DNA of 64,000 bases from Aradus depressus. Its lineage: Eukaryota > Arthropoda > Insecta > Hemiptera > Aradidae. The DNA is taken from NCBI GenBank assembly GCA_963662175.1, contig OY759216.1:45463087-45527086 (forward strand), read 5' to 3'. The position numbers and the translations under genes were made by a program. This document shows positions 13,901 through 62,230 of the stretch, piece by piece. Position 1 is the first letter of the stretch. Every line of letters starts with the position of its first letter. The notes beneath the pieces were generated by a model. That model was not told the origin of the DNA. It was given only the letters and a program-made list of their open reading frames with translations, and did not search any database.

Positions 13901-16900
13901 TCTTCTGTTGCTCTCTGGAGAGCCTCAGGATCATGTTTTGCTGCATCTTCTTCCGTTGAGTACTCTACAGACCCATCATCGTTTTCGTAGCTGATTCTAT
14001 GATATATACCTTGTTCTTCACCCACTAATTTCTCCTCCCGTTGGTACAGTGGAGTATCAATATTTACAATTGACATGATACTTTTCAACTGTACTGATAT
14101 TACTTTCAGCTGGTTTATAACTCTTCGTATTTCCCCTCTCTCTGTTTTCATAATCTTCACTGTGTCATGTATATCGTCTAATTCTCCTAACAGTTCTTCT
14201 TCTTCTTTGACATACCTAAAACAAGAATACAAGGACTGTTCAGTGGTTTCAGTGCTTTTCTTTTTTTTTTTGGAAAATATTCGAAAAATGAGAAATACGA
14301 GTATAGCCCAAAGAGAAGGAAACCTTACAAATCACTAAACTCCGTTACAAATTTAATAATTGGGTTGAACCATAAAATGGTAATTGTGTGTAAATGGATA
14401 CATCATAAGAGTTTGTACATGAAAATAGTTTATAAAATACATAAAACAACCGATATTAAATCTTAGAATACTAACACATAACTATGAGATAAAACATAAT
14501 ATTTGAATAAATAATAAATAAAGGAAGATACATGAATATCAAATTCATAGTATTGTGGGTGCTATTGATATTTTAATTATAAATATATTTCTATACATAA
14601 ATCTTTTTTCAGGACGATATTTCATGGCGATCGATGGGCTTCTTTCTCTGATCAGAAATTCAATAAGGAGTTTTAAACCAAATTTCATGTTTTCCGACCT
14701 CCTGATTCTAGAATAAATAAAACAAACATCTGTTCGCGTGCTTGGGAACACCATAACAACCGATAGAATGAATATATTGATACCAAATTTTATAAGTGTA
14801 CCCAGAACCCTCTAAGGACGACACATATTGATTTTCAGCCAAATCGGCCAAAGAGAAGGGGGGATTAGGAGGGAGCCTTAACACAAATTGCCGTTGTAAT
14901 GAATGTATTGACATGAAATTTCATATGTAAGTTCAAAGCCCTATAAGGACGACACCCAACTATTTTCAGCAGAATCAGCAGAAGATGATGAGGGTCTCAA
15001 CTCACATATTCTAATAGCTGCTGATGTAATGAATGTCTGGATATAATTCAAATATCGAGTTTTTGGCCAAACGCTTCTGGCAGACTGGAGGGAGATAATG
15101 TACACTACCAACTTTGTCAACAGTTCTCGTTACTTATCGAAATATTGGTGTTTATGGAAAGAACTCATTATAAAAAATAAGTTTCAAAGTTTAACAATTT
15201 GATACAAAATAATTACAAAGGAAATTTGTTGTACGTTACAATATTCTATATCATTCATATATTTAAAAAATAAAGATAGGACATTTCATGTGGCTTCTAA
15301 CACAGTAGTAACTTATAATAACCTAATCAAATGGCAGTTTAAGAAAATAAATAAATACAATAATAATACATACGGCCGAGTAGTATCAGTTATAGAATGA
15401 TCAACATATTCCATCATAGCTTCAATGTGAGTTCTTCTCATGTGCTCTGTATCTCTCCAGATTTTATTTATTTGCAAAGTTCTAAGTAAATCAAACTTGT
15501 CCTTGAAAACTTTTTCAACTCTAAAAAAAAAATACATTGATAAAAAGGGATTAGAACCTAATGATACATTTCTATAACAGATCGTGGAGATCTAATTGGA
15601 ACCAGCGAGCAAAGTGAGAGGAAGAATCTGTTAATAGTTAGTTATTGTGACTCATGTCCGGACTTTAACTATGAGATCATATCGCCTACTACCAGAGCGC
15701 TCTTTCGTCGCTCTGGTGGACATGAGCCCGAATCTACTATGGGAGTCCTAAATTTTATTTATTGAGGCTTAGTTACCTTAGGGTTTATCCAGGTTTAGTT
15801 AACTAGAGTCTGAGAAACAATAAAAAAAAGAAGAGGCCTCACCCACATAAACACACGGTTGAAATGAAACTTCTTTTGTCTTCATTAACCATGCGAATTA
15901 AATAAACAAATATATATATATATAGTATATATGTATGTATAGTATAAATATAGAGGGCGCCGGTAGCTCAGTGGTATGCGTGCTTGTCTTCTGAGCTCAA
16001 GATCGTGGGTTCGAAACCCGACCGAGGCCCTTAGTTTATTTTATCTGGGAGGTAAAATAAACTTGAGCACAGCGTCCTTCGGATGGAACGTTAAGCGATG
16101 GTCCCGAGCCTGTACGATGTCAGGTATTCGTTAAAGACCCCTGGCCAAGATGAATAAAAATTTAGGACTCCCACAGTAGAGTCGGGCTAATGTCCACCAG
16201 AGTGACGAAAGAGCGCTCTGATAGTAGGCGATATGACTTCGTAGTTAAAGCCCGGGCATGAGTCATAAAACCTAACCTATGTATATAATATACATTTTGT
16301 ATATATACATTGTTATATATATACACATTTACTTTTGTCTCGCACGGAATCGTCGAACACGTTTCGTTGAAGTTTTGGGGATTTTTAACTATTTAACACT
16401 AACAGAACAAAACTAAACGTATTAAATCAATAATCAAAGGTATTAGGGACTCGGCCGGGTTCCAAACCCGCGATCCTGGTAAGCATGGCACCTCTCTGAC
16501 ACCAACCCCTCCTTTGCTGGTGTTGTTCCCGTATGTATCAAAGAAATAAATGTGTCCTTCGCGTTCGCTAGCGCTCGCTTGGTCCAATGAGCTTTGAACC
16601 TAGTTTGTACTATGTTAAACCTACTTGGGATAAGCATCTTCAATATTAAGCACTAGAACTTCTCTGGCGATGTTGTTCAACGTCCTTGTATCTCGCTCGA
16701 TAACTTGTTCCATCTTTACAATTTCCGGATCAGGTGGGTCGGGTGGAGGATCGTAGAACAGTCCAAAATGTTCACCCTATTTAACCATATCTATTTTAGT
16801 CCACCGTTTTTTTCTATTTCAATAGATAAAATCGTGTTAGAGTAACTATTCGAGTTGAGATACGTGGACATATTGTGGAAACTTCAAATATTGTCTATTT

Positions 16901-19900
16901 CACAAAATTATTTTCCACGAACTACCATTTTCGGCATTACACCATTGTCTAGTTTAGTTATTAGCTCAGACGTTTGCTGAGTGCGAACCGGTCTTATAGG
17001 TAGGTACATCAGGTAGCAATTGGAATTTGAACTAGAAAATTCCAACCTCTTTACTTAACTGATGTACCTAAAAGAATGGTTCGCAGTCAGCAATCTTGTC
17101 TAACTAAACCTGAAGATTGTGTTATGCCGGTAGTTTATATACAATTGTTTTGTGTAATACATAATATTTCAGAAAATAAGTTCGTTTTATTTATTTCAGT
17201 ATAATGGTTGACTCACCACTAGATAGAATCTTAGGCATGTCACTTATTATAACAGTCTGTCATCAACATGTCTCCTGGTAAGTACCAGACTCTAAGTTGT
17301 CTCATGTTTTCCAGTTTCCAAATTTCTTTCGTGACCATTGCACCATTCTGCCCCCAGACAAAGCTTCCACAATTGCAAGATCAGTTACGTGTTTGTCCAA
17401 TTATCAATGATCCTAGGTCAATATTTGATTTCAATGAGAACTTTCCTAGTTTAGCAAAGAAGAATTGATAGAAAGTCCCTCTTGGCTATGTTTGTGGCTT
17501 TTATATTTTCTTATATTTATATTTTATTTATACAGTCCACTTAATTAGCTTGCTACCAGTATTAAATGTATTTTTTTGTATGCATTCGTTTTGCGACGAA
17601 CCAGTAAAATACTGCATGCGCTCAGTTCTTGGATTCCAATCCCAAAGCGTTATACAATATTCATTTACACGTCTGATAGTATTGTGTTGGGTATACCAAT
17701 AAATAAATATGTATGATCATTCTGATTTTATAAATAAATAAAGAATGCACCAGGAAAATACTTACAGGAAAATTACCCATTTGCTCTTTAAGTTGCTTCA
17801 ACTGATTCAACATTCCTTCCAATCGCTTCACATCTTTCACTTCCTGGCGGTGATTTTTGTTCAGTTCTTTCGACTTTTTCTTACACTTCTCTAGCGTCGA
17901 ATGAGCTTCTTCAGTTGCTAACTGTCCCAACTGAAGAACTTTTAGCATAATTTCCGACTGAATAATTGCATCTTTTTTTAAAACTGAAAGAACCTCTTCG
18001 TAATTAAATGAATCCTTGAAAAGTAAAAAATAATGAATATACATTTTTGAAAGAAGTTACGTTTTAATTTTTGAATATATCACATTTAATTAATTAAATT
18101 TCAGAGCTTTTAATTATTTAAATGCATACCACCAATTTAAAAGAGAAACTGGTGATAACATTTATTCCAGAATAATAATACATATATAATAATACAAATC
18201 ATCATACTAAATTTCGTGTTGCACATCGACAGTTATTATCCCTCTTCTGATCTCCCCTTAAGCCGATCTGGCTCAAATTGGTAGATATGGTCCTTCTGGG
18301 ATGTACACATAAACTTTTATGTGGATACATTCATTATTTAGTTTTTTTCTCCCTAAAACCCCTTTTTTCTATGATCCATTCGACTGAAAATTGATATGTG
18401 TCATCCTTATAGTGTTTTAGATACCTATACTACTCATTTTTTTTTTTTTTTTTTTGCCTTATGTACGATTTATATTAGCCATGTCTCTTTATAAAGATGT
18501 TATCTAGTTAATTACAACATCCATGGTCTCGGAAGGGAGTTCTATTTACGAAATAAAACTCACTCCCGGACGGGATTCAAACCCGCAAACCATGGTGAGA
18601 CCATGCGACCAAAGCCCGCACGGCCACCATGGCTCCCTGATACACTCATTGTATCGTTAGTTTTTGTGTTAAACCCCTCCTTCCCTTTTACTGAAAATCA
18701 ATAGGTCCTTATGGGGTTATAAAATGTTGTTTCTATACTTGCATCCCATACACTGGGGATCAAAAAACATAAAAATTCCGGTAAAAACTCAACATCGAAT
18801 ATTTGACTTCCTGGGGCTGTGAAAGAAACCCTCCTAATATAGGTGGAATAAAAATAAATAAAAAGAAACATAATACCAAGTGCCAAATTATTACTTTTTG
18901 TTCGTTAAAATATAACAAATGATGAAAATTGTTAAAAAACAATTTAATATTGGACTTCTTTTAATTCGTCCCATATTGTAAGTTATCTGTGTTAATTTGA
19001 TCTTATTTATTATTAACAATTTTGTTTGTACCTTGCACCCACCCGTCCGTCGTGTATCGAGTGACCTCAAGATCAGAGTGGAGCTATGACTGGTTGGAGA
19101 CACCGTCGTCCCAACCCTTCACCCTGTTTTCTTCCCTATGTTAACTTGATCGACTTACCTTTTGCAATATCCCTTTAATCTTCTTGTAACTCTCATGTAT
19201 AATGCGAGCAGCGTCCCTCTTGGTTTTGATGCACTCCACCTCAGCTGCTATCTGTTCGCAGTATTCTCTGTGTGGGTCCACCTGCGGCTCCTCTTTTTGA
19301 GAAGTAATTACAACTTTTTTCTGAAAATTTAACACATTCATTTGAAATTTCAGTTATGCAACAGCATTTTTTAAAATTTAATATTTAAGTACTTAATTAT
19401 GATTTTAGTAAAAAAAAAAATAATATAAATAATTACCCTTATATCATAAAGTTTCTTCCTTTTGTCATTAATCTCATAAAATAAAATATCTATTTCTTTT
19501 CTTCTTCGGAAAATCATTTGTTCTAAGCTTTCTTCAATTTTCTGTTACAATACATATAAACATATGTAAACATATAAATATTTAGTGAAAAAAAGATTTA
19601 ATATTTGCTTAATACAGGATGGCGTAAGGGAATCGATGAAACTTTGTTTAAACAAATAGAATCTATGAGTGGAACATTTGAGAACTTCAGAGATTTATGC
19701 GAGGGCTCTATGGTCAATATAAATCCCCACAGACTAAAAGAAATGTCGCTTTTGTCTCAGAATATTAAAATTATATATTTTCGGGAGGTATATGGTGTAC
19801 AAAAAAATGGATAATTATAAATTATTAAATTAAAAAAATTAGAGTATCAACAAAAATATTAAAATAAAATAAAAAATCGTATAGACTATAAGAGTAACAT

Positions 19901-22900
19901 AGTAAACATAATTATTATCTAAAAAAAATTAACATTTATGTTCCTTTCATATAGTAGATGAAGGGAAAAATATTTAAAAACTAAATTTTTTTATGTGAAG
20001 TTGATTTTCTGTATTCGTTACTCCTCCTCAAGGATGAGTGAACCTGCTAGTTTTTAATGTGAGTAAAATATAATACAGCATAGTTAATGGCTTTTAATTA
20101 CATTACTCATAGTAAATCTAACAGACTCCGCGCCCCAATGTCTATGAAGGTATCACTATAATAAACAGACTCCGCACCCCAATGTCTATGAAGGTATCAC
20201 TATAATAAACAGACTCCGCACCCCAATGTCTATGAAGGTATCACTATAATAAACAGACTCCGCGCCCCAATGTCTATGAAGGTATCACTATAATAAACAT
20301 AACATATCTGCGTACATCAGGAGTTTGGGTTCTACAGATGAGGTGTGCCTCCCGGTCTTGTTTGAGGATGTCCATAACAGCGTCCGAATCTAACAGACTC
20401 CGCACCCCAATGTCTATGAAGGTATCACTATAATAAACATAACATATCTGCGTACATCAGGAGTTTGGGTTCTACAGATAAGGTGTGCCTCCCGGTCTTG
20501 TTTGAGGATGTCCATAACAGCGTCCGAATCTAACAGACTCCGCACCCCAATGTCTATGAAGGTATCACTATAATAAACATAACATATCTGCGTACATCAG
20601 GAGTTTGGGTTCTACAGATGAGGTGTGCCTCCCGGTCTTGTTTGAGGATGTCCATAACAGCGTCCGAATCTAACAGACTCCGCGCCCCAATGTCTATGAA
20701 GGTATCACTATAATAAACATAACATATCTGCGTACATCAGGAGTTTGGGTTCTACAGATGAGGTGTGCCTCCCGGTCTTGTTTGAGGATGTCCATAACAG
20801 CGTCCGAATCTAACAGACTCCGCACCCCAATGTCTATGAAGGTATCACTATAATAAACATAACATATCTGCGTACATCAGGAGTTTGGGTTCTACAGATA
20901 AGGTGTGCCTCCCGGTCTTGTTTGAGGATGTCCATAACAGCGTCCGAATCTAACAGACTCCGCGCCCCAATGTCTATGAAGGTATCACTATAATAAACAT
21001 AACATATCTGCGTACATCAGGAGTTTGGGTTCTACAGATAAGGTGTGCCTCCCGGTCTTGTTTGAGGATGTCCATAACAGCGTCCGAATCTAACAGACTC
21101 CGCACCCCAATGTCTATGAAGGTATCACTATAATAAACATAACATATCTGCGTACATCAGGAGTTTGGGTTCTACAGATAAGGTGTGCCTCCCGGTCTTG
21201 TTTGAGGATGTCCATAACAGCGTCCGAATCTAACAGACTCCGCGCCCCAATGTCTATGAAGGTATCACTATAATAAACATAACATATCTGCGTACATCAG
21301 GAGTTTGGGTTCTACAGATGAGGTGTGCCTCCCGGTCTTGTTTGAGGATGTCCATAACAGCGTCCGAATCTAACAGACTCCGCGCCCCAATGTCTATGAA
21401 GGTATCACTATAATAAACATAACATATCTGCGTACATCAGGAGTTTGGGTTCTACAGATAAGGTGTGCCTCCCGGTCTTGTTTGAGGATGTCCATAACAG
21501 CGTCCGAATCTAACAGACTCCGCACCCCAATGTCTATGAAGGTATCACTATAATAAACATAACATATCTGCGTACATCAGGAGTTTGGGTTCTACAGATA
21601 AGGTGTGCCTCCCGGTCTTGTTTGAGGATGTCCATAACAGCGTCCGAATCTAACAGACTCCGCGCCCCAATGTCTATGAAGGTATCACTATAATAAACAT
21701 AACATATCTGCGTACATCAGGAGTTTGGGTTCTACAGATGAGGTGTGCCTCCCGGTCTTGTTTGAGGATGTCCATAACAGCGTCCGAATCTAACAGACTC
21801 CGCGCCCCAATGTCTATGAAGGTATCACTATAATAAACATAACATATCTGCGTACATCAGGAGTTTGGGTTCTACAGATAAGGTGTGCCTCCCGGTCTTG
21901 TTTGAGGATGTCCATAACAGCGTCCGAATCTAACAGACTCCGCGCCCCAATGTCTATGAAGGTATCACTATAATAAACATAACATATCTGCGTACATCAG
22001 GAGTTTGGGTTCTACAGATAAGGTGTGCCTCCCGGTCTTGTTTGAGGATGTCCATAACAGCGTCCGAATCTAACAGACTCCGCGCCCCAATGTCTATGAA
22101 GGTATCACTATAATAAACATAACATATCTGCGTACATCAGGAGTTTGGGTTCTACAGATAAGGTGTGCCTCCCGGTCTTGTTTGAGGATGTCCATAACAG
22201 CGTCCGAATCTAACAGACTCCGCGCCCCAATGTCTATGAAGGTATCACTATAATAAACATAACATATCTGCGTACATCAGGAGTTTGGGTTCTACAGATG
22301 AGGTGTGCCTCCCGGTCTTGTTTGAGGATGTCCATAACAGCGTCCGAATCTAACAGACTCCGCGCCCCAATGTCTATGAAGGTATCACTATAATAAACAT
22401 AACATATCTGCGTACATCAGGAGTTTGGGTTCTACAGATAAGGTGTGCCTCCCGGTCTTGTTTGAGGATGTCCATAACAGCGTCCGAATCTAACAGACTC
22501 CGCGCCCCAATGTCTATGAAGGTATCACTATAATAAACATAACATATCTGCGTACATCAGGAGTTTGGGTTCTACAGATAAGGTGTGCCTCCCGGTCTTG
22601 TTTGAGGATGTCCATAACAGCGTCCGAATCTAACAGACTCCGCACCCCAATGTCTATGAAGGTATCACTATAATAAACATAACATATCTGCGTACATCAG
22701 GAGTTTGGGTTCTACAGATAAGGTGTGCCTCCCGGTCTTGTTTGAGGATGTCCATAACAGCGTCCGAATCTAACAGACTCCGCACCCCAATGTCTATGAA
22801 GGTATCACTATAATAAACATAACATATCTGCGTACATCAGGAGTTTGGGTTCTACAGATAAGGTGTGCCTCCCGGTCTTGTTTGAGGATGTCCATAACAG

Positions 22901-25900
22901 CGTCCGAATCTAACAGACTCCGCGCCCCAATGTCTATGAAGGTATCACTATAATAAACATAACATATCTGCGTACATCAGGAGTTTGGGTTCTACAGATA
23001 AGGTGTGCCTCCCGGTCTTGTTTGAGGATGTCCATAACAGCGTCCGAATCTAACAGACTCCGCGCCCCAATGTCTATGAAGGTATCACTATAATAAACAT
23101 AACATATCTGCGTACATCAGGAGTTTGGGTTCTACAGATGAGGTGTGCCTCCCGGTCTTGTTTGAGGATGTCCATAACAGCGTCCGAATCTAACAGACTC
23201 CGCACCCCAATGTCTATGAAGGTATCACTATAATAAACATAACATATCTGCGTACATCAGGAGTTTGGGTTCTACAGATGAGGTGTGCCTCCCGGTCTTG
23301 TTTGAGGATGTCCATAACAGCGTCCGAATCTAACAGACTCCGCGCCCCAATGTCTATGAAGGTATCACTATAATAAACATAACATATCTGCGTACATCAG
23401 GAGTTTGGGTTCTACAGATAAGGTGTGCCTCCCGGTCTTGTTTGAGGATGTCCATAACAGCGTCCGAATCTAACAGACTCCGCGCCCCAATGTCTATGAG
23501 GGTATCACTATAATAAACATAACATATCTGCGTACATCAGGAGTTTGGGTTCTACAGATAAGGTGTGCCTCCCGGTCTTGTTTGAGGATGTCCATAACAG
23601 CGTCCGAATCTAACAGACTCCGCGCCCCAATGTCTATGAAGGTATCACTATAATAAACATAACATATCTGCGTACATCAGGAGTTTGGGTTCTACAGATG
23701 AGGTGTGCCTCCCGGTCTTGTTTGAGGATGTCCATAACAGCGTCCGAATCTAACAGACTCCGCGCCCCAATGTCTATGAAGGTATCACTATAATAAACAT
23801 AACATATCTGCGTACATCAGGAGTTTGGGTTCTACAGATAAGGTGTGCCTCCCGGTCTTGTTTGAGGATGTCCATAACAGCGTCCGAATCTAACAGACTC
23901 CGCACCCCAATGTCTATGAAGGTATCACTATAATAAACATAACATATCTGCGTACATCAGGAGTTTGGGTTCTACAGATAAGGTGTGCCTCCCGGTCTTG
24001 TTTGAGGATGTCCATAACAGCGTCCGAATCTAACAGACTCCGCGCCCCAATGTCTATGAAGGTATCACTATAATAAACATAACATATCTGCGTACATCAG
24101 GAGCTTGGGTTCTACAGATAAGGTGTGCCTCCCGGTCTTGTTTGAGGATGTCCATAACAGCGTCCGAATCTAACAGACTCCGCACCCCAATGTCTATGAA
24201 GGTATCACTATAATAAACATAACATATCTGCGTACATCAGGAGTTTGGGTTCTACAGATAAGGTGTGCCTCCCGGTCTTGTTTGAGGATGTCCATAACAG
24301 CGTCCGAATCTAACAGACTCCGCGCCCCAATGTCTATGAAGGTATCACTATAATAAACATAACATATCTGCGTACATCAGGAGTTTGGGTTCTACAGATA
24401 AGGTGTGCCTCCCGGTCTTGTTTGAGGATGTCCATAACAGCGTCCGAATCTAACAGACTCCGCGCCCCAATGTCTATGAAGGTATCACTATAATAAACAT
24501 AACATATCTGCGTACATCAGGAGTTTGGGTTCTACAGATGAGGTGTGCCTCCCGGTCTTGTTTGAGGATGTCCATAACAGCGTCCGAATCTAACAGACTC
24601 CGCACCCCAATGTCTATGAAGGTATCACTATAATAAACATAACATATCTGCGTACATCAGGAGTTTGGGTTCTACAGATGAGGTGTGCCTCCCGGTCTTG
24701 TTTGAGGATGTCCATAACAGCGTCCGAATCTAACAGACTCCGCGCCCCAATGTCTATGAAGGTATCACTATAATAAACATAACATATCTGCGTACATCAG
24801 GAGTTTGGGTTCTACAGATAAGGTGTGCCTCCCGGTCTTGTTTGAGGATGTCCATAACAGCGTCCGAATCTAACAGACTCCGCGCCCCAATGTCTATGAA
24901 GGTATCACTATAATAAACATAACATATCTGCGTACATCAGGAGTTTGGGTTCTACAGATAAGGTGTGCCTCCCGGTCTTGTTTGAGGATGTCCATAACAG
25001 CGTCCGAATCTAACAGACTCCGCGCCCCAATGTCTATGAAGGTATCACTATAATAAACATAACATATCTGCGTACATCAGGAGTTTGGGTTCTACAGATA
25101 AGGTGTGCCTCCCGGTCTTGTTTGAGGATGTCCATAACAGCGTCCGAATCTAACAGACTCCGCGCCCCAATGTCTATGAAGGTATCACTATAATAAACAT
25201 AACATATCTGCGTACATCAGGAGTTTGGGTTCTACAGATGAGGTGTGCCTCCCGGTCTTGTTTGAGGATGTCCATAACAGCGTCCGAATCTAACAGACTC
25301 CGCGCCCCAATGTCTATGAAGGTATCACTATAATAAACATAACATATCTGCGTACATCAGGAGTTTGGGTTCTACAGATAAGGTGTGCCTCCCGGTCTTG
25401 TTTGAGGATGTCCATAACAGCGTCCGAATCTAACAGACTCCGCACCCCAATGTCTATGAAGGTATCACTATAATAAACATAACATATCTGCGTACATCAG
25501 GAGTTTGGGTTCTACAGATGAGGTGTGCCTCCCGGTCTTGTTTGAGGATGTCCATAACAGCGTCCGAATCTAACAGACTCCGCGCCCCAATGTCTATGAA
25601 GGTATCACTATAATAAACATAACATATCTGCGTACATCAGGAGTTTGGGTTCTACAGATAAGGTGTGCCTCCCGGTCTTGTTTGAGGATGTCCATAACAG
25701 CGTCCGAATCTAACAGACTCCGCGCCCCAATGTCTATGAAGGTATCACTATAATAAACATAACATATCTGCGTACATCAGGAGTTTGGGTTCTACAGATA
25801 AGGTGTGCCTCCCGGTCTTGTTTGAGGATGTCCATAACAGCGTCCGAATCTAACAGACTCCGCGCCCCAATGTCTATGAAGGTATCACTATAATAAACAT

Positions 25901-28900
25901 AACATATCTGCGTACATCAGGAGTTTGGGTTCTACAGATGAGGTGTGCCTCCCGGTCTTGTTTGAGGATGTCCATAACAGCGTCCGAATCTAACAGACTC
26001 CGCGCCCCAATGTCTATGAAGGTATCACTATAATAAACATAACATATCTGCGTACATCAGGAGTTTGGGTTCTACAGATAAGGTGTGCCTCCCGGTCTTG
26101 TTTGAGGATGTCCATAACAGCGTCCGAATCTAACAGACTCCGCACCCCAATGTCTATGAAGGTATCACTATAATAAACATAACATATCTGCGTACATCAG
26201 GAGTTTGGGTTCTACAGATGAGGTGTGCCTCCCGGTCTTGTTTGAGGATGTCCATAACAGCGTCCGAATCTAACAGACTCCGCGCCCCAATGTCTATGAA
26301 GGTATCACTATAATAAACATAACATATCTGCGTACATCAGGAGTTTGGGTTCTACAGATAAGGTGTGCCTCCCGGTCTTGTTTGAGGATGTCCATAACAG
26401 CGTCCGAATCTAACAGACTCCGCGCCCCAATGTCTATGAAGGTATCACTATAATAAACATAACATATCTGCGTACATCAGGAGTTTGGGTTCTACAGATA
26501 AGGTGTGCCTCCCGGTCTTGTTTGAGGATGTCCATAACAGCGTCCGAATCTAACAGACTCCGCGCCCCAATGTCTATGAAGGTATCACTATAATAAACAT
26601 AACATATCTGCGTACATCAGGAGTTTGGGTTCTACAGATGAGGTGTGCCTCCCGGTCTTGTTTGAGGATGTCCATAACAGCGTCCGAATCTAACAGACTC
26701 CGCGCCCCAATGTCTATGAAGGTATCACTATAATAAACATAACATATCTGCGTACATCAGGAGTTTGGGTTCTACAGATGAGGTGTGCCTCCCGGTCTTG
26801 TTTGAGGATGTCCATAACAGCGTCCGAATCTAACAGACTCCGCGCCCCAATGTCTATGAAGGTATCACTATAATAAACATAACATATCTGCGTACATCAG
26901 GAGTTTGGGTTCTACAGATAAGGTGTGCCTCCCGGTCTTGTTTGAGGATGTCCATAACAGCGTCCGAATCTAACAGACTCCGCGCCCCAATGTCTATGAA
27001 GGTATCACTATAATAAACATAACATATCTGCGTACATCAGGAGTTTGGGTTCTACAGATGAGGTGTGCCTCCCGGTCTTGTTTGAGGATGTCCATAACAG
27101 CGTCCGAATCTAACAGACTCCGCGCCCCAATGTCTATGAAGGTATCACTATAATAAACATAACATATCTGCGTACATCAGGAGTTTGGGTTCTACAGATA
27201 AGGTGTGCCTCCCGGTCTTGTTTGAGGATGTCCATAACAGCGTCCGAATCTAACAGACTCCGCGCCCCAATGTCTATGAAGGTATCACTATAATAAACAT
27301 AACATATCTGCGTACATCAGGAGTTTGGGTTCTACAGATAAGGTGTGCCTCCCGGTCTTGTTTGAGGATGTCCATAACAGCGTCCGAATCTAACAGACTC
27401 CGCGCCCCAATGTCTATGAAGGTATCACTATAATAAACATAACATATCTGCGTACATCAGGAGTTTGGGTTCTACAGATAAGGTGTGCCTCCCGGTCTTG
27501 TTTGAGGATGTCCATAACAGCGTCCGAATCTAACAGACTCCGCGCCCCAATGTCTATGAAGGTATCACTATAATAAACATAACATATCTGCGTACATCAG
27601 GAGTTTGGGTTCTACAGATAAGGTGTGCCTCCCGGTCTTGTTTGAGGATGTCCATAACAGCGTCCGAATCTAACAGACTCCGCACCCCAATGTCTATGAA
27701 GGTATCACTATAATAAACATAACATATCTGCGTACATCAGGAGTTTGGGTTCTACAGATGAGGTGTGCCTCCCGGTCTTGTTTGAGGATGTCCATAACAG
27801 CGTCCGAATCTAACAGACTCCGCACCCCAATGTCTATGAAGGTATCACTATAATAAACATAACATATCTGCGTACATCAGGAGTTTGGGTTCTACAGATG
27901 AGGTGTGCCTCCCGGTCTTGTTTGAGGATGTCCATAACAGCGTCCGAATCTAACAGACTCCGCGCCCCAATGTCTATGAAGGTATCACTATAATAAACAT
28001 AACATATCTGCGTACATCAGGAGTTTGGGTTCTACAGATAAGGTGTGCCTCCCGGTCTTGTTTGAGGATGTCCATAACAGCGTCCGAATCTAACAGACTC
28101 CGCGCCCCAATGTCTATGAAGGTATCACTATAATAAACATAACATATCTGCGTACATCAGGAGTTTGGGTTCTACAGATGAGGTGTGCCTCCCGGTCTTG
28201 TTTGAGGATGTCCATAACAGCGTCCGAATCTAACAGACTCCGCACCCCAATGTCTATGAAGGTATCACTATAATAAACATAACATATCTGCGTACATCAG
28301 GAGTTTGGGTTCTACAGATAAGGTGTGCCTCCCGGTCTTGTTTGAGGATGTCCATAACAGCGTCCGAATCTAACAGACTCCGCGCCCCAATGTCTATGAA
28401 GGTATCACTATAATAAACATAACATATCTGCGTACATCAGGAGTTTGGGTTCTACAGATGAGGTGTGCCTCCCGGTCTTGTTTGAGGATGTCCATAACAG
28501 CGTCCGAATCTCCCATCTCTTGTTTCTTCAGTAACACTCTAAGTTTGTTAATTCTATCTATCAGAACTTTTATTTCTACATTTCTTTCTTCTCGTATTCT
28601 TTTTTCTGATTTTTTTATCCAGTCTTGCGTCAGTTCTGGAATATAATAAATTGTTATTCAATGCTAGTATCTTATTCCAAAGTTTTTTTTTTGTCCATGT
28701 TTCTTTTATATTAGCCATGTCTCATGGTGTTATTTAGTTATTTATAACATCCATGACCCCGGCAGGGAGTTCTTTCTACGAAATAAGGCTCTCCCGGATG
28801 GGATTGGAACCCGCAACCATGGTGATACCATGCGTCCAAAGCCCTACGCTCTAGCCCGCACAGCCACTTATGCTCCATTTTTTTATATGAACCTTTTTTT

Positions 28901-30752
28901 TTTTTTTGGAACAATTAAAAGAAATTCAGTTTCCGAATAAAGGGATTTCCCTAACATTAACATTTTTAGTTGAATTAATTTTTTTTTATTGCAACTATTT
29001 CTTTGAGGAAGGGGGAAGGGCATTAAAGAAGATGATTCCTTCATATCTCACACTTTTTTTCAAAAAGTGAGAAACATTGTTTAGTTATTCGAAAATCTTC
29101 TTTCATTCATAATCATAACTAGTACATATATATAGAGGGAAAATAATTATATTTTTATTTTGTTATACATATAATAAAAGTATTCTAATCGTGAGAAAAT
29201 GAAATGAGAGTTTTAAACAGATTTTCACGTTTCAAGATCTCCTGACTACGTCTTCACCATTTCACGATGATGATTTTGTGCGCCCTAACACACAAACGAT
29301 TATAGCTATGAACTTGAAATTTTAAATGTTGTCACATGTGCTAACTTAGGTCTGATTAGATGTTGATATTACTTTGAGGCTTCAGTATATTTTAAATGTT
29401 GTCACATGTGCTAACTTACATCTGATTAGATGTTGATATTACTTTGAGGCTTCAGTACATTATAAATGTTGTCACATGTGCTAACTTACATCTGATTAGA
29501 TGTTGATATTACTTTGAGGCTTCAGTACATTTTAAATGTTGTCACATGTGCTAACTTACATCTGATTAGATGTTGATATTACTTTGAGGCTTCAGTACAT
29601 TTTAAATGTTGTCACATGTGCTAACTTACATCTGATTAGATGTTGATATTACTTTGAGGCTTCAGTACATTTTACTAGATACCATTTATATTTATGATCT
29701 CATCAAAAATTGTTTCAAATAAAAGCTGTAAAGAAAACTAAAAGAGATATTTTATATGTAATACAATTTTTCGTTAGAAGCTCAGTTTTTAGTGAATTGT
29801 AAGCCTAAAAGATTATGAAAAACTTTTTTTTTTCTTTAATATTGTCTATTTCACAAAATATATTAGGGGAGCACATTCGGTATATCTCCATCTTCAGCCA
29901 CGACTTAAAAAAAACATTTTTTTTTTTTTAATTGTTTCACAATATCTCCGCAGAAAATGTTAAGTATCATATTTTAATATTGTTATATGTGGGTAGCTAT
30001 TTATACAAAATAGTGAATATTGGATTGGAAACTATTTTTTATTCATATTTATTTTTTATTAAACTCTTTAAGTTTTCCAGATTTTTGTGATAAAAACATG
30101 TAGAAGTTAGGTTAGGTTTTATGACTGATGCCCGGGCTTTAACTACGAGGTCATATCGCCTACTACCAGAGCGCTCATTCGTCACTCTGGTGGACATGAG
30201 CCCGACTCTACTGTGGGAGTCCTAAATTTTGCCTACCCTAAATTTTTATTCATCTAGGGTAGGGGTCTTTAACGAGTACCTGACATCGTACAGGCTCGGG
30301 ACCATCGCTTAACGTCCCATCCGAAGGACGGCGTGCTTAAGTTTATTTTACCTCCCAGATAAAATAAACTAAAGGCCTCGGTCGGGCTACGAACCCACAA
30401 CCTTGAGCTCAGAAGTCAAGCACGCATACCACTGGGCTACCGGCGCCCTCAATGTAGAAGTTACAATGAACCATAAGCAATTAATGATTCAGTTAATGTA
30501 TATACTATGTGGGATGGTGTATACCTAGAATCCTAAGCATTTAATGATTTTATCCCCTTCCTGGCAGAGCTAGGATACGTGCCTTCTCCAGGATCGGAAG
30601 ATACCAAGCCTTTTTTTCTAATATAACAGTAATAATTTTAAAAAAATACCATGAAATCCAACAATTCCTTTCAGTTGGGTAACTTGATCACTGATAGTCC
30701 ATCTATCGCCCACCAATTTCTCGGCCAGCTCCGACTTGAACATTCTCTGCAT
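10942..30752 (-). CDS. Coiled-coil protein resembling outer dynein arm docking subunit ODAD3/CCDC151, 10 exons
   Basis: Exons in order of translation: 30650-30752, 28436-28635, 19437-19541, 19159-19320, 17766-18014, 16625-16776, 15374-15520, 13767-14215, 12334-12531, 10942-11087. All phases match, giving 636 aa from ATG at 30752 (MQRMFKSELAEKLV) to TAA. Most of the protein is charged and heptad-like coiled coil, with an acidic Lys/Glu/Ser stretch near the C-terminus (from exon 13767-14215). Exon 2/3 residues GDSDAVMDILKQ, ICRT and the following Arg/Lys-rich helix line up with the equivalent stretch of human CCDC151 (GD...V...NRT) without a gap, and the length is near that family's 595 aa. This suggests a role in docking dynein arms on sperm or ciliary axonemes. 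ODAD1/CCDC63/CCDC183 relatives are alternatives. The exon structure is solid; the name is less so. Intron 2 holds the 140-bp array, which begins inside exon 2. Confidence 0.8.
11510..11696. repeat. 186-bp direct duplication, right copy
   Basis: Partner of 10244-10429, located in the last intron of the ODAD3-like gene about 1.26 kb away in the same orientation. Confidence 0.8.
11740..12000 (-). mobile_element. tRNA-derived SINE (family 1), diverged copy
   Basis: Read on the plus strand it goes from GACCGGGCTTTAACTACGAA through ATCGCTTAACGTCCAACCCG to a decayed tRNA-like head (TTGAGCTCAGTAAGCAAGCA, GGTACCTGCGCC). It lies in the last intron of the ODAD3-like gene. Confidence 0.7.
12787..12895. 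mobile_element. Possible end of a pogo/Tc1-type DNA transposon
   Basis: The phrase CAGTCAAAACCTTGTATAAC followed by GACGTCGGGTTTAACGACGT resembles terminal repeats of pogo/Tigger-like elements. No matching opposite end or transposase was found nearby, so this is a fragment at best. Confidence 0.35.
13207..13306 (-). mobile_element. tRNA-derived SINE (family 1), internal fragment
   Basis: It contains GGTAGGGGTCTTTAACGAGT, ACCTGACATCGTAC and CTTAACGTCCCATCCCAAGG, the central body of family 1, with neither head nor tail. A LINE-like 3' segment (GGGCTGGTGTGTTCACC...) lies just to its left. Confidence 0.65.
13481..13603. repeat. Direct repeat flanking an ODAD3-like exon, left copy
   Basis: It shares AAAAATGAGAAATACGAGTA, AAGGAAACCTTACAAATCAC and ACTCCGTTACAA with 14271-14378 in the same orientation. 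Both copies follow a T-run. Together they bracket the coding exon 13767-14215. Confidence 0.8.
14271..14378. repeat. Direct repeat flanking an ODAD3-like exon, right copy
   Basis: Partner of 13481-13603. It begins about 55 nt upstream (in gene orientation) of the acceptor of exon 13767-14215. Confidence 0.8.
14612..15110 (+). repeat. ACTTCC-type dispersed repeat
   Basis: Internal family phrases are present in order: ATTTCATGTTTTCCGACCTC, GATAGAATGAATATATTGAT, CCCTCTAAGGACGACACATA, TTTTCAGCCAAATCGGCC and TAATGAATGTATTGACATGA. It also shows the internal near-duplication typical of the family. It sits in an ODAD3-like intron. Confidence 0.65.
15637..15757 (-). mobile_element. tRNA-derived SINE (family 1), 3' fragment
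   Basis: It holds the inverted 3' part: GACTCATGTCCGGACTTTAA, CGCCTACTACCAGAGCGCTC, GTGGACATGAGCCCG and GGGAGTCCTAAATTTTA. Confidence 0.75.
15955..16278 (+). mobile_element. tRNA-derived SINE (family 1), full-length copy
   Basis: This is a complete element of about 324 bp. The head GGGCGCCGGTAGCTCAGTGG has a pol III A box, and GTGGGTTCGAAACCCG is a near-perfect B box. The tRNA-like head is followed by TTAGTTTATTTTATCTGGGA, the conserved body (CGTTAAGCGATGGTCCCGAG) and the 3' end AAAGCCCGGGCATGAGTCAT. It lies in an ODAD3-like intron, antisense to the gene. Confidence 0.88.
16921..17134. mobile_element. Fold-back (MITE-like) element
   Basis: The left arm starts ACTACCATTTTCGGCATTAC and the right end reads TGTGTTATGCCGGTAGT. 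The left arm pairs with most of the right arm over about 75-90 bp with small gaps (for example TTTGCTGAGTGCGAACC against GGTTCGCAGTCAGCAA). It codes for nothing and lies between two ODAD3-like exons. Confidence 0.7.
18201..18815 (-). repeat. ACTTCC-type repeat split by a SINE
   Basis: Inverted family phrases appear on both sides (left: ATACTAAATTTCGTGTTGCA, CCATTCGACTGAAAATTGAT; right: TACTGAAAATCAATAGGTCC, ACTCAACATCGAAT). A family-2 SINE at 18437-18636 interrupts the element, so the SINE inserted later. Confidence 0.6.
18437..18636 (-). mobile_element. tRNA-like SINE (family 2)
   Basis: On the minus strand it starts GGAGCCATGGTGGCCGTGCG, has a B-box-like GCGGGTTTGAATCCCG, continues GGGAGTGAGTTTTATTTCG and ends in a run of 19 As. 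Related copies are at 28683-28876 and 41166-41407. Confidence 0.7.
19605..20120. other. AT-rich intron between array and exon 3
   Basis: This is intron 2 sequence of the ODAD3-like gene. A 69-codon open stretch at 19605-19814 on the plus strand has no splice context or recognisable domain, and I do not call it a gene. Confidence 0.5.
20121..20252. repeat. Three 44-bp deletion-derived units
   Basis: Units start at 20121, 20165 and 20209. Each equals the 140-bp unit (next entry) minus an internal 96 bp. The deletion is flanked in the full unit by a short ACA repeat (ATAAACATAAC and AATCTAACAGAC), which fits microhomology-mediated or slippage loss followed by local amplification. Confidence 0.9.
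20253..28511. repeat. 59-copy tandem array of a 140-bp exon/intron-junction unit
   Basis: Period 140 bp. Fifty-eight full units run from 20253 to 28372, then a 139-bp terminal unit ends at 28511. Units differ almost only at two sites (CGCG/ACCCC and CAGATG/AAGG). I noticed two private changes, near 23498 and 24104. On the minus strand each unit holds 76 bp identical in frame and sequence to the 3' end of exon 2 of the ODAD3-like gene (starting GATTCGGACGCTG, ending CTCCTGAT), then the donor GTACGC and 64 bp of intron. The last unit merges without a seam into the unique part of exon 2. High homogeneity implies recent expansion or ongoing homogenisation. Confidence 0.97.
28683..28876 (-). mobile_element. 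tRNA-like SINE (family 2)
   Basis: On the minus strand: GGAGCATAAGTGGCTGTGCG, ATGGTTGCGGGTTCCAATCC (B-box-like), GGGAGAGCCTTATTTCG, ending in an A-run. It is clearly related to 18437-18636. It sits in intron 1 of the ODAD3-like gene, about 50 bp upstream of exon 2. Confidence 0.7.
29321..29670. repeat. Five-copy 70-bp tandem repeat
   Basis: Units start at 29321, 29391, 29461, 29531 and 29601 and begin TTTAAATGTTGTCACATGTG. Copies are nearly identical (CTTAGG/CTTACA and TTTAAA/TATAAA variants). It lies in intron 1 of the ODAD3-like gene and is unrelated in sequence to the 140-bp unit. Confidence 0.95.
30110..30451 (-). mobile_element. tRNA-derived SINE (family 1), full length with target-site duplication
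   Basis: This is a complete inverted family-1 element flanked by a perfect 12-bp direct repeat ATGTAGAAGTTA (30098-30109 and 30452-30463). The head GGGCGCCGGTAGCCCAGTGG and the B-box region TGGGTTCGTAGCCCGACC are intact. The duplication shows retrotransposition and fixes the element's ends, including a GGTTAGGTTTT (AAAACCTAACC) tail. Confidence 0.93.
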
Positions 30753-31085
30753 TTTGAACTAATTGAACTACTTATCTAAAGGGAAAAAGAGAAGTATTGG
30801 AATTAAAATGTTAAATGGAAATCTAAGAGAAAAAAAAAAAACGTCTGGAGGCAAATGTAACCTCCACTAAATAGGATCTGAAGTAAAATCATCTGTTTCA
30901 AATATAATAATAATTATTATATTATTATTATTTTATTTATAATTTTATTATTATTATTGGTGAGAGATCAGGCTTGTGGTCAATAAAAACAAACTTTTAG
31001 ATATAACAATTGTCGCGCCGTTAATATTTGGCGCAAAATGTAATAATATTACAAATTATACTATATGTATACATAATATTACACA

Positions 31086-31436
31086 GGGCGCCGGTAGCTC
31101 AGTGGTATGCGTGCTTGACTTCTGAGCTCAAGGTAGTGGGTTCGTAGCCCGACCGAGGCCCTTAGTTTATTTTATCTGGGAGGTAAAATAAACTTAAGCA
31201 CGCCGTCCTTCGGATGGGACGTTAAGCGATGGTCCCGAGCCTGTACGATGTCAGGTACTCGTTAAAGACCCCTACCCTAGATGAATAAAAATTTAGGGTG
31301 GGCAAAATTTAGGACTCCCATAGTAGAGTCGGGCTCATGTCCACCAGAGTGACGAAAGAGCGCTCTGGTAGTAGGCGATATGACCTCGTAGTTAAAGCCC
31401 GGGCATGAGTCATAAAACCTAACCTAACCTAACCTT
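31086..31436 (+). mobile_element. tRNA-derived SINE (family 1), full length
   Basis: It runs from GGGCGCCGGTAGCTCAGTGG (A box) and GTGGGTTCGTAGCCCGACCG (B-box region) to AAAGCCCGGGCATGAGTCAT, and ends in a short CCTAACCTAACC repeat. It is very close to the copy at 30110-30451, in the opposite orientation. Confidence 0.9.
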
Positions 31437-33263: not shown

Positions 33264-33791
<528 letters not shown>

Positions 33792-37702: not shown

Positions 37703-40700
37703 TTATCTAACTTGATCCAAAGTTTCTTTCAATGCCGCCAACTGCTCTTCTCCAAGTTGAATTTTTTCTGCTATTTCTCTTGAATCGACAAGTAGTTTCG
37801 ATTTCATGTTAATAAAATGATCATAATCTGTATACTCCTCTCCTGTCAAATAATTGTAGAGCATTGAAGAAACACTCCCGCTTCGTTGGTCGATGTTACT
37901 TTTCAGTTGTTTCGCTTCGTTCAGTTGACACAATAATTTATCTCTTTTTTCTTCTAAAGCTTTCTGAAAATTAAAAATGAAATATAGATTTAATAACAAG
38001 TTAAATATTTATGAAAATTAATAACAATTTGAATATACAAGTTTCCACATTCTAATAACAAAAAAAAAGTGAGTCCTTCCTCTGATCCCGCTCTCCCCTT
38101 GCGCTGATTCCACTGAAAACTAATAGGTTTCGTCCATATAGGAATTTACAAATGAAATTTCGTGCCAATACATTCATTACAACTGCAGTTATTAAGAAAT
38201 TTGTGTTAAGCCTCCCCCTAATCCTCCTCTTCTCTTTGGCTGATTTGGATGAAAATCAATAGCTGTCGTCCACAGAAGATTCTGGATACACTTATATAAT
38301 TTGGTGTCGATATATTCATTCTATCGGGTGTGCAAAAAAAAAAAGCAGAATTTTATTTTTTTCATTTTTATAATCAGGAGGTCAGAAAACATGAAATTTC
38401 GTTTAAAATTCGGGCAGCCAGTCAACACGACTGAGATAATAAAACATGTAATAGTTTTCATTTCACAATCATATTTTTAGTTTAAATTTAATTAAACATA
38501 ATAATTAACAATCAGGTACCAAACACAAAATATTAGTGCATGTAAAAATATGTTGTAACAGAATAATCAACACAAATTTAAATGAACAATTAAAATTTTC
38601 ATCAGTCAGTCTAGTCATCCAGTCTTATACAATAAGTTGTAGTAAGTAGTAAGTAAGAAATAAGTATCCTCAATTAAATGAGCCTCTATTTTTCTTTTTT
38701 TTCAGCAAATAGGTCCAACACTTTTTCGCCTGAAATTTTATTTTTACTATTTCATTCTCGTTCAGCTGATAGCACTAAATATACTCTAAAAACAATTATT
38801 TTCACTTTTTACGGCTTTCATTGAATACATTCTAAAATATGTAGTTAGTCTTAATAGTATTTTTATTTTAGGTAAACATTGCACCGCCGTGCGGAGTTTT
38901 TGGGAGATTTTAAAATTGCCGCGCGTTTTGTTGTGATACGCACGACGATCCGTTCGCTAAACTCTCATACTTCGCCGATAGGCAGCATACGTTGTAGTTC
39001 AAACTTTAAGAAAGCGTAATTTGAATCCGAATAACGTTTTGACTGGGAACTGAAGTTTTCTATGTCTTTGTCTTGACAGTAATGTTTGTCTGTGGTGGAG
39101 TTGTCGTTATATATTATTATTTTTTTTTTTAATTAGGCACCGGGCATCTGGGTGGGGCCTAGCTACGCCAACGAACCTCGGTCATGGAAAAAGAGGGTCG
39201 CGCTCGTGTGTGCCCGGTTACATTTTTTTAAATAATAACATAATAAAATGGCGTTACATTTTGTTCAAATGGTTATTAAACAGAGTGACCGGAGCCATGA
39301 GGGCTCTATTTGGTTATAAATGTCTCTCAATGAATGCAAGTGTAGTGCAGTATGGATCCTTACCCTATCGTGGTGATCTTGAGGTAAAACGAGAAGAGCG
39401 TTCTCCACCTTGGCGAGTCGGCCGGAGAGAGATAGGAGAAGAGAGGTGATGTGTCCCACTTCCATGACGTGAAGCTTGAAGCGGGTCACTTCATGAGGTC
39501 GAGCTACCCGCTCGACCCGCTGGCTCACCGTCAGTCCTAGCGCCTCGTTCACCGCAGTCTCTTCAGTCACCGCCACTGACTCGGCTCGCAGCACGGACAG
39601 CTTCCGCGACAGTCGCATCATCAGCTCCTCCTGTCACACAATACACCAAAGTCAGGTCAAGTCTAAAGTAGACACACAAAAACTAGACATGGCAGTGAAT
39701 AAAAAGAAATTAGTTTTGTTTTTAATGATGTTATTATCTTCAGATGATATGAAGCCTAAGGACATAGAACTGTCTTCTTAAAAATAATATTTTCCATCAT
39801 GCTGGTTATAAGATGTTATAGCACGCAAAACAACGCAAAAGAACAAACGTGCTGCTTACGCTCCGGAAAACGTTAACATTACATGGAAGTCCGTAGAGGA
39901 ATCAATATCAGTTATTACTTTAACTGACATACAATGATGTCGTAACATGGCACTTGGAAAATCATGTCTCGTGATTCATATATCACAGACAGGTTATGTC
40001 ACAACGCGAACAGCCAATCACCACAACAAAAAAACAATTAAAACCTGTTTGTTGATAGTTGCTTGGTGATACGATGACACAAACTGTGATGCGTTATTTG
40101 TTTATCAAAAAACAATTATAATAGACCTCATCGTCTAGTCCACCTTGACTGTTACAACTTATGTATAGTAGTATAAATTATATCTTCTTCTTGGGGCGTT
40201 AGTAGCTCAAGAATAGCGTGAGCTTAAGATCACAGGTTAAAACCCAGCAAGGATCTTAGGTTCTTATCGGGGATGTATGAAAACCTTGGACGTTAAATGG
40301 CGGTCCCAAGTTTCTGCCAGGTCTCGTTTAAAACACTTACCCTAATTAATTCCACTAGGGAAATACACTACATACTTAGGGACCTAGGTGTACACACAGT
40401 ACACCCAGTATATCTGTACCTTCTTCTGCTGAAGAGTGCCGATGGATGAAGAAGAGATGGTACTGTCGGTGGTTTGAACGTTGTTCGTACTGGCCATAGA
40501 CAACAACCGTGCTTTACATTCTGAACTTGTAAAGTGCGTGTTGTTCGTAGTCAGCGCATCACATTCTTTCCTATAATTAAAGAAAAAGAAAAAACACACA
40601 TAAGAAATCAGAAAAGATCATTGTAATGCAAACATTAGAATTAAGAATTAAATGAAATAGTAACATATTTTTTTATCAAATAAATAAAAATACGTCGTCT

Positions 40701-43700
40701 TTATGTTAAAATTGTTTTATTGGTTATGTACGACCGGCTTCGCATGGTATCAAGCATGCTCAAGCCAAAGAAAATAAGGAGGAGAGGTGAGTGCTTCGTA
40801 CCTTGACCGGGTCGCATAATTCCTCAGGTTTACAAGCTCGAAAGGCCTTCTCAACTTGTGTAAAAATAACGTGTCATAACCACTTTTTTATTAACTCTAG
40901 AACAGGGTTTCAACGCAGATGTGTCATCATCAGTGGTACATCACCGGTTTAATTGGTGTGGCTTCTAACGACATTCATATGTGATAGTAAGATGTGTGAT
41001 GAGATTTATCATAGAAATTAACTATCATTATTACTATGATAAATCTCATACCACAACACCTTACTATCACATATGAATGTCGTCTACAGATAAATTGTGA
41101 ATAGAGAAATAATAAAATGTCAAAAAATCGTATGTTTTAATGGCATCTTGTATATTTAAATATTAGAGGTCGTGGTGGCCATGTGGTCTAGAGCATAATA
41201 CTTTCATTGCATGGACTTAACAATTCGAATCCCATCCGGGAGAGAGTTTTATACGAAACTTCTCTCCCGGGGCCACGGAGGTTTCTAAATAACCTTGGTA
41301 ATGTGGCCCCCTGAGTGCCAAAATAAAATTTATACTCCTTTCCCCCAGCCTTTAACAGCCAAAGGGAAGAATTACTATACGTTTGGGCGTTAAACATTTT
41401 TTTTTTTAAATATATTTAAATATAAAAAGTCGTGTTTGCGCAGTTTTACAAAGCGGAACCAGGTCTCACTTTTCACTTGACCAAGAAAATGAATAGGGTT
41501 ATGAATTTGCATATGAAATTTCGTGTCAATACATTCATTTCAACGACAGTTATTAGAGTTTTTTTGTTGAGCCTCTCCCCTCCTCTTTGTCTGTAAATGA
41601 ATACTCATTCGTCCCTATGGGATTCTGGATACACATACACAATTCGTGTCGATTCATTCTGTAGGGAGTAATCGTGTTCACAGACAAACATAGAAATTTA
41701 CTTTTCATTTTTGGAATTTCTAAACTTCGTATAGTTGGGGAAGCAATAAATACAGCTTATGGCTTCTGAAGCTAATTATATTCCAACATATTCTGAAAGT
41801 TATATAAAATAATTTCGTTGAACCGTTTTAATAGGGTCCCCACTCTCTGTAATGCCCTACTGAGTCGGTGATAGGACTGGAAAGGATACATTTTTTGGAG
41901 GAACGGGAGTGTTCTTGTTTTTTTTAGGTGTTGAAACCGCTTCATAATTATCCATGAAATATGGTTAAAACCCGCTCTATCCTATTAAAGTATGGCTCTT
42001 ATAACTCTCTATAATGACTCCATAAAACTTTAATTATAAAATGTTTACCTCTATTGAAGCGTCGCTAAAAAAAAGATAAGATCAATTTTGAGAAAACTCA
42101 CCCTACAGACTGAACCATTGTTGTACTGGTCGTCTGTTGTTGAGTCGTAGTTGTGCAGGTCTGTTGTTGTGTTGATACTGTTGTTGTTGTCCCTTGACTC
42201 GTTATGTTGTTGCTGGAGTTCGTTGTAGACGGGGTCACCAAGGAAGATCTAGATCTTGGCATATAGTCCATCCTGAATAGACCAAACACATAGTCCGTTG
42301 TTCTCTTCACCTCCGGACCAGGAGCTAAAAAAAAAAAAGTGTTCATAGACAGAATATCAGTTATTGAGTAAATGAAGTCAACAATAGAGGACATAATTGC
42401 CGTTTAAAATTAAAATAAAGAGACAAAATATTTTAGGCACATCACTAGTAGAAAATGTGCAAGATGGAGGCAGATATTATTTATTATTTTTTTTTGGAGG
42501 GGAGGGGAATTAGAAGTTTTCCATCAGGCGGAAGAAGAAAGTAATAGTGTGCGATAGTTTTTATATTACGCAACGGATGGAAATGTACACTTTGATGTAT
42601 TCCTTGCGTTTATAGCCAAAGGTGAAACTGTCTAAGCTTGCTGAAAACCTTTCATTTCACGTTCTCTAAGAAACACGTAACCTATTTTATATAATTTTAT
42701 ATTATTATCACATGAGTATTGTTATCACATGAGTGCCCATAATTGTGTTTGAACTGCATGACGTTCCAATAGAGAAATATAGGCATATCTGATGGTACTC
42801 TTATTACAGTTCCGTTGTTATTTATGTTATTTTATTAATTTTACAGATACGTACATCAGAATGAGTAAGAAGATACGAAGTAATTTAAACAACTTACTTT
42901 CTAATCTAGGGGCTCCTCTAATTTCTCCTGAAGCGTGTAAAAAAGTAGAAAACATTAAAAGAAATGAATTATGATTACAAATTGATCTTATGAATTGTAA
43001 ATTTCCAATAATGATAATTTTTTATAAATTCTTTTTTGACCATCGTAGAGACTAAAATACTTTGTCTCCTGCCCATTTCTTCTCTCCAACTCGACACAAT
43101 ATTACACAACCAAACAGCGAAGCCACATTTTGAAATAGGTATATTCTTGTAAAATGTTACAAGAAACATGACTAAGCAGATAAAGACAAACTATGAACTC
43201 TTCGACAGAATGCAGGGCCTTTGACACCAGATCTGACAGCTCTTCTGTCATAATATTCACCATTTAGTAGAATATTCGATACACTTTACGTGTAATCTAT
43301 GTAGAGTATGTCACGTTGGTTTTATTGAATAATATACACGTAGAATATTAGCATATTACTGTCAGAAGCATTTAAAACATCTTGGAAATATAATCATTGG
43401 CTCAATCCACCAATTGAAGTCCTCACTGTTCTCAAACAGCTCTACTGAAAGGCACAGGAATACCGGCCCAAAATAAATAGTTTTTCTTCTTTACTTTTCG
43501 TGAGTTAGTTAGGCCAAGGGAGGAGCTTCAGACTTACTTAACTCTACTGGCGCCCTCATACTCTCCTCCGATTGGTTGTTCAACGCAGAACCACCTCACA
43601 CAACACTCTACAGATTACAACTAAAATAGACCCCATTCTCCTATATTCTCTACCATTTCTCCTGTCCAATCTACTACTCAAATCGCTCTTCCGAAAAAAC

Positions 43701-55400: not shown

Positions 55401-55486
55401 TCTCAACTCCATAATATGGAGTTGAGATCAGCTGTTTCAAATAGAGAGAAACATATTATGTTTCTCTCTATTTGAAACAGCTGATC
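55401..55486. repeat. Two overlapping perfect palindromes
   Basis: The first is 55401-55427, with 12-bp arms (TCTCAACTCCAT / ATGGAGTTGAGA) and a 3-nt loop. The second is 55426-55486, with 30-bp perfect arms (starting GATCAGCTGTTTCAAATAGA) and a 1-nt spacer. They overlap by two bases. Confidence 0.95.
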
Positions 55487-62185: not shown

Positions 62186-62230
62186 TATAGGTACTATATA
62201 AGTGTTTAAAGTAGATTATGAAAATAATAT

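Follow-up and report, generated by a model that had tools for sequence, protein, structure and literature searches.

The 64,000-nucleotide window of Aradus depressus DNA that we have analysed (contig OY759216.1, positions 45,463,087 to 45,527,086) contains on its minus strand an apparent multi-exon gene, for which ODAD3 (CCDC151) is a weakly supported name, and whose second intron is filled for the most part by a tandem array of 59 copies of a 140-bp unit. The unit straddles the boundary between exon 2 and intron 2, i.e. it combines the end of the exon, the splice donor and the start of the intron. The features of the gene and of the array are listed below, at the positions of the window:

28436 to 28635, minus strand: exon 2 (200 bp), entered in phase 1 and left in phase 0, an open frame with acceptor TTATTATATTCCAG|A and donor GAT|GTACGC, translated as LTQDWIKK...TQTPD; its last 76 bp (28511-28436) lie in copy 1 of the array.
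28372 to 28435, minus strand: the first 64 bp of intron 2, which are the intron part of copy 1 and start with GTACGC at 28435.
20252 to 28511, minus strand: the main array, 59 copies of the 140-bp unit, delimited with Tandem Repeats Finder (TRF) and by register and column counts.
20120 to 20251, minus strand: a further three partial units of 44 bp at the distal side of the array (TRF); a fourth 44-mer lies inside copy 59, at 20252-20295.
19437 to 19541, minus strand: exon 3 (KIEESLEQ...YDIR), which is entered in phase 0 and closes intron 2, with acceptor AACAG|A and donor AGG|GTAATT.
19159 to 19320, minus strand: exon 4 (KKVVITSQ...ILQK), with acceptor TTTTCAG|A and donor AAG|GTAAGT.
17778 to 18014, minus strand: exon 5, the coding part as searched (DSFNYEE...KEQM), which starts at 18014 in frame after exon 4 and whose 3' end is not fixed.

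The main array is reported by TRF with a period of 140, 59.0 copies, 99% matches, 0% indels and a score of 16240. The 59 copies given in a preliminary description of this locus are borne out by both TRF and the register count, but the start of the array is found at 20252, one base earlier than the 20253 given there. When the register is counted from 28511, each of the 59 copies is complete, ungapped and at most two differences away from copy 1; the copies, whose number is taken from one assembly, are arranged head to tail and are all located at this single locus within the window, as is characteristic of a minisatellite, or variable number of tandem repeats (VNTR). The exon 2 donor divides copy 1 on the minus strand into 76 exon bases and 64 intron bases, and at the seam 28511/28512 the repeat unit runs on into the unique part of exon 2. 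The repeat amounts to 8316 of the 8894 bp of intron 2 (the 140-bp array together with the three extra 44-bp copies), while the same intron with a single unit copy would measure 642 bp. The composition of the unit, the continuity of the terminal copy with the unique part of the exon, and the multiplication of an exon/intron boundary in place, into an array of about 8.3 kb that makes up most of the intron, are all found as the preliminary description had them. The 44-bp array (20120-20299, 4.1 copies by TRF) repeats the intron end of the 140-bp unit. The search against Rfam gave no match at gathering scores.

The interpretation of the array depends on exon 2, which is apparently coding and spliced as drawn, on the grounds of its frame, its splice signals and a weak alignment: 66 open codons are flanked by an acceptor and a donor, lie in A+T-rich surroundings and are frame-compatible with exons 3-5. 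If exon 2 is joined to exon 3 at the copy 1 donor, the frame is preserved and the product aligns to chain 9cpc_1L of ODAD3 in the Protein Data Bank (PDB) with a score of 58, while the two other in-phase GTs that could serve as the exon 2 donor score 44 and 39. Three ODAD3 chains (9cpc_1L, 7rro_H4 and 8j07_m8) were located in the PDB with ODAD3 stretches as queries, and the first and the last of these were compared with the exons. The score of 58 is equalled by 7 of 5000 shuffles, whereas the matches of exons 4+5 to the ODAD3 chains (428 and 345 of 5000 shuffles as high) and of exons 2-5 joined (292 of 5000) are weak; for a coiled-coil decoy and swapped exon pairs there is no signal, as 3130 to 3614 of the 5000 shuffles reach their scores. 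The similarity appears to be order-specific, in that the matched exon pairs exceed the shuffle mean and the swapped pairs and the decoy do not.

An explanation in which the stretch 28635-28436 is not a coding exon, and the array is a common type of minisatellite, intronic or intergenic, would agree with the outcome of the profile and sequence searches: ODAD3 is not found by phmmer with the peptides of the window against the PDB, none of the 7996 candidates scored in a protein collection has an E of 10 or less, and the Pfam search of the exon peptides yields no ODAD3 and one weak Phage_coat match (13 bits, against a cut-off of 25). It would also agree with the fact that exon 1 was not identified. 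We consider this explanation quite unlikely, given the open codons with their acceptor and donor, the A+T-rich region in which they lie, the frame that fits exons 3-5, and the weak, apparently order-specific similarity to ODAD3. Among the other PDB matches, a phage coat protein (whole-sequence E of 0.00028) is attributed to chance, being formed by two copies of one weak stretch with independent E of 2.3 and 2.5; ribosomal, haemagglutinin, origin-recognition and other matches were likewise discarded as chance.

Our search for traces of the origin of the array is focused on its edges, where short direct repeats are found, as well as on a neighbouring array of unrelated sequence:

20115 to 20119, no strand assigned: the founder direct repeat on the distal side, AATCT (read as AGATT on the minus strand), a 5-bp match just beyond the 44-mers.
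28507 to 28511, no strand assigned: the exon-side copy of AATCT, which forms the last five bases of the unit and is the partner of 20115-20119.
29319 to 29674, no strand assigned: a 70-bp array (TRF; 5.1 copies, 98% matches) whose founder edges carry a 6-bp repeat, located approximately 0.7-0.8 kb upstream of exon 2.

The edges carry direct repeats of 5 bp in the 140-mer (AATCT), of 4 bp in the 44-mer (minus-strand TGTT) and of 6 bp in the 70-mer; at randomly drawn, equally spaced points outside the arrays (200,000 draws for each), a match of that length or more has a chance of 0.0106, 0.0291 and 0.0031, respectively. The 70-bp array would be the product of the same kind of birth as the 140-bp array. 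Judging by its title, one published paper deals with a minisatellite that supplies multiple splice donors. In two further sources, sequences between direct repeats of 5-10 bp are duplicated via slippage or unequal crossing-over in one model of minisatellite birth (the Haber and Louis model), while a second model involves an incomplete terminal unit (PMC3389668), and a segment duplicated in tandem over an intron-exon boundary is described in a potato gene for an RNA-dependent RNA polymerase (RdRp) (PMC4974935). The 5-bp founder repeat AATCT falls within the range of the first model, and the statement of the preliminary description that the array belongs to no standard class finds no support in these published cases.

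It is also conceivable that a pre-existing satellite entered the gene and that exon 2 acquired its end by capture from this satellite. The base composition of the unit would suit such an entry, since its G+C content (0.50 in the exon part, 0.41 in the intron part) is higher than that of the rest of intron 2 (0.25). The edge direct repeats, on the other hand, are the mark of a duplication in place, and the unit is represented elsewhere in the window (blastn, outside 20000-28600) by nothing beyond matches of 11-14 bases; in two virus and prokaryote collections, which are poor places to look for animal sequence, no exact 25-mer of the unit was found. In addition, the frame crosses the seam into exon 3, together with a 60-residue ungapped alignment to 9cpc_1L that begins at the G-D of the seam; this favours an ancestral exon over an exon captured from a satellite, although not strongly. 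Taken together, we regard the capture as very improbable.

The comparison of the 59 copies has revealed four variable columns in the unit (plus strand), two of which, columns 29 and 73, vary in a single copy each. Column 13 (43 G and 16 A) and column 89 (22 G and 37 A) are two unlinked G/A dimorphisms (15 GG, 28 GA, 7 AG and 9 AA; Fisher p of 0.56) with almost no other variation beside them, for which conversion, recurrent change and assembly are possible causes; their states follow each other in random order along the array (27 runs where 24.2 are expected, and 33 where 28.6 are expected). No clear higher-order period is seen; of the 29 lags, lags 10 and 11 reach z of 2.2 and 3.0. The array of 8260 bp holds two singletons, and the copies at its two edges (copies 1 and 59) are identical to each other and to some of the inner copies; these observations point to recent growth or to strong homogenisation. 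Short-tract conversion occurs in human hypervariable minisatellites, and it fits this pattern, while block-wise exchange alone fits less well. With regard to the coding sequence, column 89 is synonymous (CTC/CTT) and exon 2 itself carries CTC; one non-coding copy reads TQAPD where exon 2 reads TQTPD.

Near-identical copies and a random order of the dimorphic sites could also arise from mixed haplotypes or polishing, if the animal carried few copies and the 59 were an artefact of the assembly. We find such an inflation unlikely: 59 indel-free copies with two clean dimorphic sites are unlike the errors of noisy reads, and a simple loop of the assembly would give a periodic order of the variants, of which there is no clear sign.

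The splice sites of the unit were scored with a matrix, and were ranked against 3186 GT and 3000 AG sites outside the array. The donor GAT|GTACGC is kept in 59 of the 59 copies, within the 12-mer CCTGATGTACGC, and scores 4.36 (92nd percentile), i.e. every unit provides a donor-like site at the level of the sequence, as would a donor-providing minisatellite. Where column 13 is A (T on the minus strand), a second candidate donor, GGG|GTGCGG, is created that scores 8.13 (98.9th percentile); it occurs in 16 of the 59 copies and in two of the three extra 44-mers. The acceptor of exon 2 is the best-scoring one nearby (3.84, 98th percentile), while the acceptors of exons 3, 4 and 5 score 0.98, 2.41 and 1.88 (87th, 94th and 92nd percentile) and the sites near the acceptors of exons 6 and 7 score 4.49 and 2.77. 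The positive-scoring AG sites of the unit, as counted in copies 1 and 2, range from 0.91 to 2.05, and the two best kinds reach the 91st-93rd percentile. The claim that an upstream acceptor is confined to a single copy therefore goes too far, as each unit carries candidate acceptors, the two best kinds of which lie within the range of the acceptors of exons 3-5.

The copy 1 donor is most likely the one that is used, with the other 58 silent, as suggested by the reading frame and the alignment. The unit length of 140 bp is not a multiple of 3, and reading through the exon 2 donor leads to a stop after 13 further codons; the use of later donors would thus break the frame. Between the donor at 28435 and a candidate exon start at 28407, which follows TTTATTATAG, there are 28 nucleotides, judged too short for an intron. 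Each unit also contains a latent exon of 112 nucleotides, open in one frame that is not the frame in which exon 2 leaves; as a true exon it was rejected, since it would leave introns of 28 nucleotides and its open frame does not follow from exon 2.

A different role of these sites would be assumed if the array were functional, i.e. if the field of donors offered alternative donors, held the U1 small nuclear ribonucleoprotein or lengthened the transcript and in this way tuned expression. The donor 12-mer that is kept in all of the copies and the candidate donor that is added in 16 of them are compatible with this, as is the existence of giant satellite introns in the Drosophila genes kl-3 and kl-5, described in the literature (PMC6508621). 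Youth alone, however, explains the kept donors, later donors would disrupt the frame as noted above, and the RNA of two copies folds no better than shuffles (z of +1.72), of which 195 out of 200 are equally stable or more so. This explanation is, in our estimation, most improbable, and the array probably has no selected function.

The reading that we favour, and hold to be quite probable, is that of a minisatellite, either young or strongly homogenised, that arose within the gene by the ordinary processes of birth and growth, with the splice site included by chance. The 140-bp segment at the boundary of exon 2 and intron 2, located between the two observed AATCT repeats, would have been duplicated by slippage or by microhomology-mediated repair. 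Growth to 59 copies may have followed through unequal exchange and short-tract gene conversion, which would have shuffled the two dimorphic sites, as indicated by the near-identity of the copies and by the absence of linkage and the random order of these sites. A second small event at the 4-bp edge repeat TGTT would have added the three 44-bp partial units on the distal side. Splicing would join the exon 2 acceptor to the donor of copy 1, as the frame and the alignment suggest, with 58 silent donors left in an intron that would have grown from approximately 642 to 8894 bp.

Several observations weigh against this reading. Exchange in blocks should leave repeated blocks, but the longest repeated haplotype run is 8, which is reached by 81 of 1000 shuffles, and the signals at lags 10 and 11 are marginal. 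The 44-mers show both states of column 13 (one G and two A), so that conversion or recurrent change is needed. The matches at the edges, of 4-6 bases, are short, and their probabilities are modest when taken singly. The alignment to ODAD3 is also weak: the "ODAD3-like" designation of the preliminary description agrees with the match of exons 2+3 to 9cpc_1L, but against 8j07_m8 the same exons score 43, which is reached by 430 of 5000 shuffles, and the database searches do not return the name. Lastly, the silence of the 58 donors is not to be assumed, because of the published minisatellite that is titled as a provider of multiple donors.

The locus is a real and unusual case that is built by a known process, namely a minisatellite with a splice junction as its unit by chance; the origin itself is ordinary, as of a minisatellite born between short direct repeats. 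If the array was born and has grown as we favour, the last 25 codons of exon 2 and its donor are at the same time copy 1 of the array, and would be exposed to conversion from 58 non-coding copies. On this basis, concerted evolution of the satellite and the coding end of exon 2 may be conjectured, in which the non-coding copies would rewrite the 25 codons and the donor by conversion, while the donor-creating variant of 16 of the 59 copies and the candidate acceptors of each unit would form a reservoir of latent 112-nucleotide exons; the splicing of a ciliary gene could then be tuned by the number of copies and the order of the variants. We consider this extended proposal unlikely. Provided that the array itself is real, the instability of a minisatellite is coupled at one locus to the length of an intron and to exon sequence. 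The locus can be seen as a natural test of a spliceosome that faces 59 identical donors in a row, and of a coding exon that is homogenised together with a tandem array.

Additional elements are located around the gene. A dispersed repeat (28683-28844 and 18446-18617, 81% identical), one copy of which stops approximately 50 bp upstream of the exon 2 acceptor, resembles by eye a short interspersed nuclear element (SINE) derived from a tRNA, yet ARAGORN calls no tRNA. Also upstream of exon 2 is an inverted pair (30106-30449 and 31085-31428; 344 bp, 98% identical) that spans about 1.3 kb overall and is similar to an element with terminal inverted repeats; pieces related to this element (30106-31428) are found at 15634-15762, 15928-16280, 5664-5907, 62228-62429, 62617-62724 and elsewhere. 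On the plus strand, 33264-33791 holds an open reading frame of 175 residues with a zinc knuckle (PF13917, E of 4.4e-8; the first 84 residues were searched) and a lysine/serine-rich tail, and on the minus strand, 37703-38008 is an exon of a Shroom-type gene (Pfam ASD2, E of 1.5e-31). Reverse transcriptase and PRE_C2HC domains are present in the window. Two segments of 789 bp (58804-59592 and 63212-64000) are 100% identical, the first being located in a long interspersed nuclear element (LINE) with reverse transcriptase and endonuclease domains and the second leaving the window; this pair is a very recent copy or an assembly duplication. Palindromes are located at 40968-41083 (116 bp, 87% self-complementary) and at 55426-55486 (61 bp, 98%).

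Among known systems, the nearest that our literature search has returned for a donor-bearing exon tail that forms a satellite or minisatellite is the title of Turri et al. 1995, on a minisatellite providing multiple splice donors, and we do not claim that a closer case is absent. The likeness, by title only, is that of many splice donors in a transcribed gene. That minisatellite reportedly belongs to the human 6-16 gene and is said to have a short unit (approximately 12 bp) and alternative donors that are in use; by that account, the present array differs in its 140-bp unit, its 59 copies, its 76 bp of apparent coding sequence and its frame-breaking later donors. A donor-offering minisatellite is therefore a known kind, of which the present one is distinguished by a 140-bp unit with 25 codons and, apparently, by its copy count.

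The other comparisons are with further published systems. In common with the minisatellites of the direct-repeat model (PMC3389668), a longer unit between 5-bp direct repeats has become tandem in place, but here the final 25 codons of what appears to be a coding exon, together with its donor, form part of the unit. The duplication in the potato RdRp gene (PMC4974935) similarly affects, in place, a segment that straddles a splice junction, whereas here the donor side is involved and there are 59 copies. The VNTR in intron 2 of hTERT (PMC2915984), with a 61-bp unit and 40 to 44 copies, is likewise a large intronic minisatellite of tens of copies; its copies diverge by approximately 10%, however, and the part of the source at hand does not mention exon sequence in its unit. 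Finally, the giant introns of Drosophila kl-3 and kl-5 (PMC6508621) also hold tandem repeats in the intron of a gene that may, in the present case too, be axonemal, but the array described here extends over kilobases and not megabases, and its repeat comes from the splice junction of the gene itself.

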